From an uncultured Oxalobacter sp. (GTDB lineage: Bacteria > Pseudomonadota > Gammaproteobacteria > Burkholderiales > Burkholderiaceae_D): a stretch of 64,000 nucleotides of DNA. Position numbers and translations under genes: made by a program. The notes below the pieces were generated by a model, which saw only the letters and a list, made by a program, of their open reading frames with translations, searched no databases and had not been told where the DNA came from. Positions 37,382-58,966 of this stretch are shown piece after piece (the stretch's first letter is position 1; each line of letters starts with the position of its first letter). The stretch covers positions 294,355 to 358,354 of the forward strand of contig CAKQWF010000002.1 in assembly GCA_934277985.1 (NCBI GenBank), given 5' to 3'.

Positions 37382-37720
37382 TCAGATCGCTTCGATACCG
37401 GTTTCGCCAGTGCGGATCCGGATGACCTGCTCGATATCCTGCACGAAAATCTTGCCGTCACCGATCTTGCCCGTTCTGGCCGATTTGAGAATTGCCTCGA
37501 TCGCCAGTTCCAGCATGCTGTCGTCCACCACGACTTCGATTTTGACTTTGGGCAGAAAATCGACGACGTATTCTGCACCACGATAAAGTTCGGTATGGCC
37601 TTTCTGGCGGCCGAATCCCTTGACTTCCGTGACGGTCAGTCCATTGATGTTGGCATCGGACAAGGCTTCTCGCACTTCATCCAGCTTGAACGGTTTGATG
37701 ATGGCGGTGATTTTTTTCAT
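37382..37720 (-). CDS. glnB: Nitrogen regulatory protein PII
   Basis: From ATG 37720, with GGAG nine bases upstream, the protein has the standard 112 residues. It has the T-loop [19 protein letters not shown] with the uridylylated Tyr-51 and the C-terminal [26 protein letters not shown] senses 2-oxoglutarate and ATP/ADP and controls glutamine synthetase adenylylation and NtrB. The first 15 codons and start region lie in the 51-bp repeat bounding the integrative element, so its upstream DNA now comes from the element, and its ancestral partner nadE lies 21 kb away. The protein is intact. Confidence 0.95.
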
Positions 37721-37724
37721 GCAA
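37674..37724. repeat. Left attachment repeat (attL) inside glnB start
   Basis: These 51 bases are identical, in the same orientation, to 58916-58966. They cover glnB codons 1-15 plus four bases upstream of the ATG. After one mismatch the match continues for seven bases into the ribosome site. A direct repeat at both ends of a region carrying a tyrosine integrase is the expected product of site-specific integration. Confidence 0.88.
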
Positions 37725-37947
37725 ACTCCGGTGACGGGAAAAATGGAAATATTTTTTAAAATCAATAGCTTAATGACACTAGCGGGCAAGCAGAGAGTTA
37801 TTAAGAATTTTCGATATCTATTTGGATTTTAAGGCTTAATATAATTTCTGTCACAATTTTGTCACAGTTTTGTCGAGGTCATGTCAATGCTTTGTCACAT
37901 CAAGTAAACAATTATTGTTTCGCCAGAAATCCTGAAGTGCTGTTCAG
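37725..37947. promoter_or_regulatory. Left end of element with repeated TGTCACA motifs
   Basis: This stretch has no gene. It now serves as the upstream region of glnB. It contains TGTCACA at 37849-37855, 37860-37866 and 37893-37899 and TGTCGAG at 37871-37877. The same TGTCACA/TGTCGA words recur at the right end (58797-58858). Repeated short sites at both ends of an element suit arm-type sites for the integrase or an excisionase; this is inference. Confidence 0.5.
37773..37787. repeat. 15-bp inverted repeat, left copy
   Basis: ATGACACTAGCGGGC here is the reverse complement, with one mismatch, of 57764-57778 just before the integrase start. Both copies lie within the element near its ends. Confidence 0.5.
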
Positions 37948-38103
37948 TTAGGATTTGAGCATTTCAACAATCAGATTCAGGAAAGCATGCTTCTGGGAAG
38001 GCGTCAATTTCTGGAAATGTTCCAGCATCAGCTTGTCAGCATCACTGATTTCAAGCTCATGCCTGACATCATACTTTAACCATTCATAGGAAATTCATCA
38101 TGG
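37948..38103 (-). pseudogene. Small ORF disrupted at its start
   Basis: On the minus strand directly after the XRE gene a frame encodes YEWLKYDVRHELEISDADK followed by LMLEHFQKLTPSQKHAFL and ends at 37948. It has no in-frame standard start: the ATGATG overlapping the XRE stop opens a different frame that ends after five codons. Removing one C near 38088 would join both into a 50-residue protein. It may be a frameshifted partner of the regulator, or be expressed from a non-standard start. No family is recognised. Confidence 0.4.
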
Positions 38104-38439
38104 TTTCTTCATGGATAACCGTTTTGACCACACCTGTATTTGTTCCAGCAGGAACATTCGGTCACTCTCTGAGAGCGGTCTCAATAATTCTGCAACATCA
38201 TCAGCCAAAGTGATGGCATTGGATGATACACCATCAAATAATTTGCCAAGCGGTTCACCTATGGCGTCTGCTATCCGATCAAGTGTTGCAATACTTGGGC
38301 TGACAGCTCCTCTTTCAATTCTGGATAGGGATACTGTATCAATTCCAACTTTCTCGGCAATTTCTGCTTGAGTTCTGCCAGATGTTTTCCTTGCATCAGC
38401 AATGTTGCGCCCCAGTCTTACAGCAATATTTTTGCTCAT
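38098..38439 (-). CDS. XRE-family transcriptional regulator
   Basis: The 113-residue protein has a lambda-Cro/C1 type helix-turn-helix at residues ~8-62 (GRNIADARKTSGRTQAEIAEKV, then GIDTVSLSRIERGAVSPSIATL). A short C-terminal part (LADDVAELLRPLSESDRMF) probably dimerises. It is divergent from the exported-protein operon beginning at 38576. Two perfect palindromes lie between them, so it probably represses itself and that operon. It is the leftmost intact gene of the element. Confidence 0.9.
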   Translation of the reverse strand: MSKNIAVRLGRNIADARKTSGRTQAEIAEKVGIDTVSLSRIERGAVSPSIATLDRIADAIGEPLGKLFDGVSSNAITLADDVAELLRPLSESDRMFLLEQIQVWSKRLSMKKP

Positions 38440-38497
38440 AAACTAGCCCTAAATTGTCTAGAAGTTGCAATTTATGTTGTCTTAGAGCTGTAAATTT

Positions 38498-38532
38498 TAG
38501 CATATTGCAATATGCTAACAATATGCATATTG
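38498..38532. promoter_or_regulatory. Two palindromic operator-like sites
   Basis: TAGCATATTGCAATATGCTA (38498-38517) is a perfect 20-bp palindrome, and CAATATGCATATTG (38519-38532) is a perfect 14-bp palindrome beside it. Both share the half-site CAATATGC/GCATATTG. They sit between the divergent XRE regulator and the 38576 operon and are the obvious candidate binding sites for that regulator. Confidence 0.7.
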
Positions 38533-38575
38533 GGTATATTTCTTTGGGGTTATCTCGATATCTTGAGGAAAAGAT

Positions 38576-57763: not shown

Positions 57764-57778
57764 GCTCGCTAGTGTCAT
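57764..57778. repeat. 15-bp inverted repeat, right copy
   Basis: GCTCGCTAGTGTCAT is the reverse complement of 37773-37787 apart from one base. It ends 15 bp before the integrase ATG, in its leader, so it may be an operator for integrase control. Confidence 0.5.
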
Positions 57779-57793
57779 GTCGGGAGAAATAAT

Positions 57794-58795
57794 ATGGCAC
57801 TGTATAAACGAGGTAGCATCTATTGGATAAGCTATACTGATCCCAATGGAAAACGGGTTAGATGTTCTACCAATGTGTCTGGTAAAAAGCAGGCGCAGGA
57901 GTTCTTTGATAAGTTGAAACATGAATCATGGAGAGCTTCGAAGCTCGGAGATAAGCCACGTCGCACGTGGGATGAGGCAGCAGCTCTTTGGATAAAAGAG
58001 AAATCATACAAAAAGAGTATAGATTTCGATATTTTTGTGCTGCAAAGGATAATAAATCCGGTTTTTAGTGGATTGTATCTTGACAAGATTACCAGAGAAG
58101 ATATTGCTTCCTTTGCAGAAAGGAAAAGGAAGACACTTGCTCCCAGTAGTGTGAACAGGTATTTGGTATTGATGCGTTCTATTTTCAATCGGGCGGTCAG
58201 GATTTGGGGATGGATAGATAAGGCACCGGCAATAATGCTTTATAAAGCCCCAAAAGGAAGGATCAGATATCTTACGCAGGATGACGTAGACAGATTAATG
58301 ATAGAGCTTCCGGAGCATCTTAAGCCAATTGTAGCATTTGCATTGTTAACCGGACTGAGAAAGAGTAATGTTCTGAATCTGCGCTGGACACAGATTGATC
58401 AAAAAAAAGGGATTGTCATTATTCCAGGATCAGAAATGAAGAATGGTGAAAACCATGTAGTACATTTGTCCAAGAAGGCTCGATCTATTATTTCTTCCCA
58501 GAAAGGTAAGCATGATGAATATGTATTTACCTTTCGAGGAAGAAATATAAAAAGGATAGATGGTGCTTTCAGAAACGCGCTTAAACGTGCGCAAATATCT
58601 GATTATCGTTTTCATGATAACAGACATACATGGGCATCAACCTTGATCCAGAATGGGGTTTCTTTATATGAGTTGCAGGCGATGGGAGCATGGAAAGATC
58701 CGGAAATGGTAAAACGATATGCTCATCTCGCACCAGAGAAATTGAGGGAGAATGCAGAAATAGTAGATGTTCTTTTTGGCAATTCCTTGTCATAG
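57794..58795 (+). CDS. Tyrosine recombinase (element integrase)
   Basis: The 333-residue protein has an N-terminal arm-binding strand pattern (SIYWISYTDPNGKRVRCST), a core-binding SAM-like domain (about 57-150) and a catalytic domain with Arg-189 (LLTGLRKSNVLNLRW), His-274 and Arg-277 (FHDNRHTWAS) and Tyr-309 (MVKRYAHLAPE). GGGAG precedes the ATG. It is transcribed toward the right attachment repeat 121 bp past its stop. It is complete and all catalytic residues are present, so it may still be active. Confidence 0.95.
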   Translation: MALYKRGSIYWISYTDPNGKRVRCSTNVSGKKQAQEFFDKLKHESWRASKLGDKPRRTWDEAAALWIKEKSYKKSIDFDIFVLQRIINPVFSGLYLDKITREDIASFAERKRKTLAPSSVNRYLVLMRSIFNRAVRIWGWIDKAPAIMLYKAPKGRIRYLTQDDVDRLMIELPEHLKPIVAFALLTGLRKSNVLNLRWTQIDQKKGIVIIPGSEMKNGENHVVHLSKKARSIISSQKGKHDEYVFTFRGRNIKRIDGAFRNALKRAQISDYRFHDNRHTWASTLIQNGVSLYELQAMGAWKDPEMVKRYAHLAPEKLRENAEIVDVLFGNSLS

Positions 58796-58796
58796 A

Positions 58797-58860
58797 TTTG
58801 TCGAAATATTGGTCGAGATATTGTCGAAACCAATAAAATTGTCACAAATCCGTCACAATA
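58797..58860. promoter_or_regulatory. Right-end cluster of TGTCGA/GTCACA words
   Basis: Between the integrase stop and attR lie TGTCGAAA, GGTCGAGA, TGTCGAAA and two GTCACAA words. These echo the TGTCACA/TGTCGAG words at the left end of the element, as expected for integrase arm-type sites. Confidence 0.45.
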
Positions 58861-58881
58861 ATCAACGATTCTGATTTTAAA

Positions 58882-58962
58882 TCATTGATTTTTAACATTG
58901 AAAAAAGCCTCGCGTACTTCATCCAGCTTGAACGGTTTGATGATGGCGGTGATTTTTTTCAT
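58882..58962 (-). pseudogene. glnB: Orphan 5' fragment of glnB
   Basis: Starting at ATG 58962, behind CCGGAGCTTGC, the first codons read [19 protein letters not shown], the exact N-terminus of PII, and then diverge to FFNVKNQ and a stop at 58882. This is the stub left when the element integrated into glnB. It follows nadE by 75 bp on the same strand, showing the ancestral nadE-glnB pairing. If transcribed it would give a 26-residue peptide with no PII function. Confidence 0.88.
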
Positions 58963-58966
58963 GCAA
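58916..58966. repeat. Right attachment repeat (attR)
   Basis: Identical over 51 bases to 37674-37724 in the same orientation. It lies 121 bp after the integrase stop and includes the start region of the glnB stub. Removing one repeat and everything between gives a joined nadE-glnB arrangement. Confidence 0.88.

Follow-up and report, generated by a model that had tools for sequence, protein, structure and literature searches.

The 64,000-nucleotide stretch analyzed here (the window) comes from an uncultured Oxalobacter sp. (contig CAKQWF010000002.1). Our subject is the segment at 37674-58966, which lies between two copies of the start of glnB, the gene for PII. This protein (GlnB) is a central sensor of the nitrogen and carbon state of the cell. 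The features at the two ends of the segment are the following.

37382..37720, minus strand: glnB, coding for a complete PII protein of 112 amino acids; codons from about 16 onward chromosomal, leader from the element
37674..37724, no strand: 51-bp core copy (exact repeat) at the integrase-distal junction, within the 5' end of the intact glnB
37721..37750, minus strand: element-donated leader and ribosome-binding site of glnB, with 24 of 30 bases as in genome G001 and 22 of 30 as in G006
37726..38097, minus strand: element DNA now 5' of glnB, the presumed site of a new promoter, with two promoter-like matches
57794..58795, plus strand: tyrosine integrase of 333 amino acids, an open frame (Phage_integrase, E 1.3e-31) with its 3' end toward the stub
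58798..58846, plus strand: TTGTC(GAA/ACA) repeats, possible integrase arm sites; similar repeats at 37849-37899
58882..58962, minus strand: glnB stub of 26 codons plus stop, with its ATG at 58962; the original chromosomal start of glnB
58916..58966, no strand: 51-bp core copy (exact repeat) at the integrase-proximal junction, within the glnB stub
58989..59013, minus strand: hairpin resembling a terminator, part of the native spacer and retained at the stub between the box and the stub ATG
59019..59026, minus strand: TTTACAAT, -10-like box conserved in native nadE-glnB spacers and retained at the stub
59038..60651, minus strand: nadE, NAD synthase, the native upstream neighbour of glnB; the stub is behind it

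The two core copies form an exact direct repeat with a spacing of 21242 bases, made up of 4 bases 5' of the glnB ATG, codons 1-15 and 2 further bases. They sit within a longer repeat pair of 90 nt with 86% identity (37654-37743 and 58896-58985). Apart from these, direct repeats of at least 20 nt in the 24 kb searched were limited to two pairs, one of 23 and one of 24 nt, both imperfect. The outer edges of both core copies were taken as the limits of the element (37674-58966). Its G+C content in 1-kb rows was 0.33-0.50 (38001-58000), compared to 0.45-0.58 outside, where the outer rows were mostly above 0.50. Neither end of the element carries a tRNA gene; the only two in the window are at 10014 and 10185.

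We found that the glnB product matched Pfam P-II with E 9.7e-34 and aligned over residues 1-112 to the PII protein 1hwu. The 112-residue protein is therefore complete after the insertion, as in elements that restore their target. The stub, on the other hand, translates into 19 residues followed by FFNVKNQ and a stop.

We searched for glnB in 13 Oxalobacter genomes (referred to as G001, G002 and so on). The chromosomal flank at 33000-37600 had 89% DNA identity to G006 over its full length; in the other five genomes compared, the best long match was 76% (G001), and values above this were confined to short stretches, for the most part within glnB. Because of this difference in identity, we assign the window to an Oxalobacter species close to, yet distinct from, G006. 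A whole glnB-type gene was present in 11 of the 13 genomes (88-99% identity); in a twelfth, G011, the gene was cut by a contig end, while G009 had only a more distant glnB paralog. In all 12 glnB-bearing relatives nadE was directly upstream of glnB, with no interruption.

An alignment of 10 of these 12 relatives with both window junctions (A2) showed that the nadE side of the window tracks G006 up to the core, while the glnB side tracks G006 beyond the core. When the flanks of the element were joined, 446 of 486 bases matched G006 with no gaps (139 of 150 upstream, 307 of 336 in the gene). In the present layout the matches were 45 of 150 upstream of the intact glnB and 73 of 291 behind the stub core. 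Such a pattern is what we read as the trace of a precise insertion.

Thus end repeats, an intact integrase gene at one end and an empty site in relatives are all found at this locus, as in site-specific integrative elements. We consider it very probable that an integrative element, of about 21.2 kb from core to core, entered at glnB codons 1-15 by site-specific recombination. A first-pass annotation of this DNA had described a perfect 51-bp repeat on glnB codons 1-15, an orphan glnB stub and an intact tyrosine integrase facing the stub, and had proposed a 21-kb integrative element with glnB as its attachment site. The coordinates of the exact repeat agree to the base, the integrase is open and oriented as described, and the proposal is supported by repeats, integrase and empty sites. 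The uninterrupted nadE-glnB junction that it suggested looking for in relatives occurs in 12 of the 13 genomes, and the flanks join onto G006 without gap or overlap. The layout that would have spoken against the proposal, with the stub as an independent gene in relatives, was not seen among the Oxalobacter genomes examined.

The DNA at the two junctions points to the origin of the new gene start. The last 30 bases 5' of the intact glnB had 24 of 30 matches to G001, 22 to G006 and 21 to G004, but only 8-16 of 30 to the other nine relatives, and the likeness stops further upstream. The leader on the stub side matched the native leader of G006 in 27 of its last 30 bases. By this comparison, the replacement sequence belongs to the element and does not stem from the old locus. 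Moreover, the element's own copy of glnB continues with VREA beyond codon 15 and then diverges. Since the leader resembles native leaders and VREA persists past codon 15, these alignments reveal in the attachment site of the element (attP) a captured glnB start, which comprises about 19 codons with their ATG, preceded by a leader of about 30 bases with a ribosome-binding site. The Oxalobacter donor of this start cannot be told from such matches, as the leader is nearest G001, whereas the four codons after the core are nearest G004 (11 of 12 bases).

The course of events that we propose is as follows. The attP of the element would have recombined with glnB codons 1-15 of an Oxalobacter chromosome. 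The crossover was most likely performed by the 333-residue integrase, and excision is most likely steered by an AlpA-type protein encoded near the same end. The outcome was a complete chimeric glnB at the integrase-distal junction; at the integrase-proximal junction, the former gene start persists behind nadE as a stub of 26 codons. As the start codon belongs to the exchanged part, the host's nadE-glnB spacer and its box remain at the stub, and glnB would now be expressed from element DNA. Since the upstream region of glnB has been exchanged, carriage of the element should uncouple PII expression from its normal promoter.

The loss on the glnB side was visible in a short conserved sequence. 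The box TTTANAAT was present within 75 bases 5' of native glnB in 9 of 12 relatives, starting 42-65 bases before the ATG, while mononucleotide shuffling gave an expectation of 0.09 of 12. It was absent from the native spacer in G002, G010 and G011, and much of the remaining spacer has diverged among relatives. We infer that the box is the native -10 element of glnB. In the window, the box at the stub now reads toward the integrase 3' end, and none was found in the 378 bases 5' of the intact glnB. Some promoter for glnB is likely within the element DNA, since the gene is kept whole; promoter-like matches were found at 37865-37838 and 37854-37826, i.e., 106-145 bases before the intact glnB. The first-pass annotation overlooked this side of the insertion, in which the glnB protein is retained but the gene has lost its own conserved promoter-like box.

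The hairpin between the -10-like box and the ATG is clear in G006, in G004 and at the stub, so an attenuator is possible in these species. A conserved attenuator before glnB is less favoured, for the hairpin is weak, different or absent in the other relatives folded.

The integrase shares invariant columns with 31 relatives, including R189, K216, H274, R277 and Y309, which we take to be its catalytic residues. At E 1e-20 or better it is matched by 662 proteins. Among the best 120 of these we observed one full-length cluster with 98% identity (32 member sequences in public data) and a fragment match with 99% identity that covers 58% of the integrase; no other full-length one exceeded 70%. A tree with 70 rows places the window integrase with P0002 and P0003 (100/100), within a set of Oxalobacter and unplaced integrases.

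We also examined the loci of the 80 best genome and 80 best viral relatives of the integrase. Since 38 of these 160 loci end within 250 bases of the integrase, those with at least 250 bases behind it (78 genome and 44 viral loci) could be evaluated. A tRNA gene lay no further than about 450 bases from the integrase end in 57 of the 78 genome loci, or in 53 of 78 if counted from the integrase stop codon only. All 53 of the latter tRNA genes point at the 3' end of the integrase gene, the same polarity as that of glnB here. A tRNA was also beside the integrase in 39 of the 44 viral loci; several of the 80 viral loci look like mutual copies by lengths and scores. As to the nearest placed Oxalobacter kin, one (L002) is at tRNA-Met, two (L003 and L004) are just behind protein genes and one (L001) is not at a tRNA; an integrase fragment at a contig edge of G005 (L217; 68% over residues 230-327) is at tRNA-Lys. 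Since the relatives mostly face tRNA genes, and with the same polarity, the use of glnB resembles a change of target within an integrase family that mainly faces tRNA genes; the part of the target carried along is its 5' end in place of the 3' end.

Two candidate features of the site found no support. The glnB core might mimic a tRNA T-loop, as it shares GTTCAAG with the tRNA-Met of L002 and L023; its best ungapped matches to tRNAs at the related loci were short, with scores of 5-9, and scattered along the tRNA. For the TTGTC-type repeats we rejected a regular arm-site arrangement, as two are at the left end and three at the right, but 6 of 11 are in the interior of the element; they are kept as possible arm sites only. 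Separately, the genes behind a related integrase in O. paraformigenes (L001 9965-12298) look by eye like phage lysis genes, as if two elements were in tandem.

The interior of the element carries further genes, as listed below.

38098..38439, minus strand: XRE-type helix-turn-helix regulator that reads toward glnB (Pfam HTH_3, E 1.8e-13)
38576..43424, plus strand: cargo, a five-gene cluster whose last gene codes for a CsgG-domain protein; chromosomal counterpart in G006
44283..46385, plus strand: cargo, GmrSD-type protein with matches to the N and C domains, possible defence
47173..47793, plus strand: cargo, SAM-lyase family protein, possible anti-restriction (Pfam S-AdoMet_lyase, E 2.6e-9, above the cut-off)
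48441..51657, plus strand: cargo, RecB-like nuclease-helicase in two overlapping frames (48441-51368 and 51343-51657)
51976..52284, plus strand: cargo, cyclic-phosphate processing receiver domain protein (Pfam cREC_REC, E 5.6e-25)
54170..55852, minus strand: protein of 560 amino acids, function unassigned; three relatives in the protein search
56176..56721, minus strand: replication initiator of the G2P or rolling-circle kind (Pfam REP_ORF2-G2P, E 1.8e-7)
56688..56903, minus strand: AlpA-type regulator, likely excisionase or directionality factor (Pfam Phage_AlpA, E 1.2e-15; PHROG excisionase families)

No relaxase or type IV secretion genes were named among the 25 open reading frames (ORFs) of the element in the Pfam scan, in which 11 of the 25 had no Pfam match at all; conjugation machinery of an unfamiliar kind is possible. 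Likewise, no capsid, tail or terminase genes were named when the same 25 ORFs were compared to PHROGs, where several matched families of unknown function only.

Both RecB-like frames hold part of the AAA_12 domain. For the 560-residue protein, three relatives were found at E 1e-5 among 5.8 billion proteins (96, 89 and 29% identity), and there was no match to PDB sequences at E 1. Its structure model had a mean pLDDT (predicted local distance difference test score) of 40.6, too poor for a fold search; by eye only, some conserved stretches are reminiscent of polymerase motifs. We also observed that at 44283-47793 an anti-restriction candidate (SAM-lyase family) is close to a defence candidate (GmrSD-type).

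Parts of the element have counterparts in other Oxalobacter genomes. The five-gene cluster matched a region of G006 with 80% DNA identity over 4.5 kb (window 38713-43258, L214 9709-14250). There it adjoins a gene that, judging by its sequence, we take to code for an RNase R-like protein. Oxalobacter may be the source of this cargo. A second instance of the rep-AlpA pair is in a 9.8-kb element at tRNA-Thr of G004 (L215 5758-15679), which has adjacent Rep (42%) and AlpA (43%) genes related to those of the present element and its own end repeat of 93 nt at 94%. The G004 element differs in having another site and another integrase, presumably the 427-residue ORF next to the tRNA, and it had no blastn match to the window at E 1e-5. 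Given the cluster in G006 and the pair in G004, backbone and cargo genes of the element appear to circulate within Oxalobacter. For the region 43500-58890, we found only short DNA matches, of up to about 300 bases, in 5 of the 13 genomes. A near-mode search of plasmids with the element gave no match; in distant mode, the integrase-and-stub region matched two plasmid records, over just 56-60 bases in the stub core.

Several observations weigh against the proposed integration at glnB and its effect on the promoter. The 51-bp repeat is a place where an assembler could misjoin, and one cargo gene, the RecB-like nuclease-helicase, is frameshifted. The 12 relatives are kin, hence the count of 9 of 12 for the box is not one of independent cases, and the number of promoter-like matches in the region now leading into glnB is close to that expected by chance, with 4 found compared to a mean of 2.8 expected. 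Finally, the homologous integrases next to glnB that the first-pass annotation led us to look for did not turn up. Neither a PII gene nor a stub was seen next to the related integrases of the 80 genome and 80 viral loci (78 and 44 of them evaluable), nor beside the integrases of the loci examined later; a weak tblastn match at L080, over 23 residues, was to the middle of PII and is not a stub. The present locus is the only glnB-site case seen among the integrase loci examined.

The strongest competing explanation is that the element entered as proposed but has since become a fixed island in decay, unable to excise. We regard this as a possibility worth keeping, though clearly the less likely one. 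The split of the nuclease-helicase over two frames is in its favour, as is the fact that no relaxase or transfer gene was named among the 25 ORFs scanned. Conversely, the reading frames of integrase, AlpA-type and rep genes are unbroken, no base differs between the core copies over their 51 bp, and a full-length integrase cluster with 98% identity and 32 member sequences exists in public data.

It is also conceivable, if rather improbable, that the element controls PII of the host. The glnB gene would then be under the control of the element, perhaps through the XRE-type regulator, and the stranded promoter, set against the integrase, would tie excision to the nitrogen state.

We give very little credence to a chimeric contig, in which the assembler fused the element to glnB via the common 51 bp. 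The window may derive from a metagenome and exact repeats are indeed typical misjoin points, but glnB-like sequence is present at both ends beyond the exact repeat. Because this likeness (90 nt, 86%) extends past the 51 bp, the element itself bears a glnB start. Both flanks are also the expected neighbours, in the expected order and on the expected strand. Least credible of all is a tandem or segmental duplication of glnB, later filled with foreign DNA through homologous recombination or a transposon: it would account for two glnB starts on one strand, but the duplicated stretch stops at about codon 19, the native spacer is single, a tyrosine integrase is at one end and the flanks join without a scar.

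Insertion at glnB with exchange of the gene start can be compared to known systems. Elements of the SXT/R391 type insert near the 5' end of prfC and replace its start, so that the protein is kept and the upstream region is changed. The present element, too, replaces the start of a protein gene, keeps the protein and changes the upstream region. It differs in its target, in its size of 21 kb compared to a large conjugative element, and in that no conjugation genes were named. With the elements at tRNA sites (in Nitrosomonas, Massilia, Oxalobacter and others), it shares the integrase family, with 39-52% identity in 57 loci, and a target gene that reads toward the integrase 3' end (53 of 53). In those elements, however, the integrase-adjacent tRNA is complete, while here the proximal copy is a broken stub and the distal copy is the rescued one, because the replaced part is the 5' end.

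According to the accessible part of PMC10111431, attP usually carries a replacement sequence. The same part deals with regulated gene integrity and with satellites that have no replacement sequence; as here, an element within a gene alters the expression of that gene. Unlike those satellites, however, the present attP has a replacement, the protein is intact and the upstream region alone is exchanged. Furthermore, the announcement of TIGER/Islander, whose table comprises about 1.75 million islands, gives 43.4% of islands as lying in coding sequences (PMC12424338). Integration into protein genes is thus common, and restoration of the target from attP is established.

What is new here is the glnB site, together with the replacement of the DNA upstream of a central regulatory gene. 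Searches of a limited open-access library did not turn up glnB as an integration site; an entry for glnB in the TIGER/Islander island table is possible. The site is not mentioned in the accessible parts of PMC12884075, PMC10111431 or the Oxalobacter genome paper PMC9812493. The first-pass annotation had named glnB as a site not known to be described, in agreement with these searches of open-access papers.

Oxalobacter are gut bacteria studied for oxalate breakdown (PMC9812493, accessible part). An element in the first codons of glnB, with an exchanged upstream region, offers a natural experiment on how PII is dosed and controlled in these bacteria. It also illustrates how an integrase whose family mainly faces tRNA genes can exploit a protein gene, namely by bringing along the 5' end of the target in place of the 3' end, and it provides a precisely defined chromosomal site (attB), codons 1-15 of a conserved gene.

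We observed PII-like sequences in viral data as well. DNA similar to glnB (70-74%) was present in three unannotated records named as Salmonella or Escherichia phages (OR851144.1, OR851639.1 and OR845144.1), perhaps as bacterial DNA in the preparations. A viral contig, IMGVR_UViG_3300022074_000021 (L208 2823-3200), the sole one found in a pattern search, encodes a whole PII-like protein.

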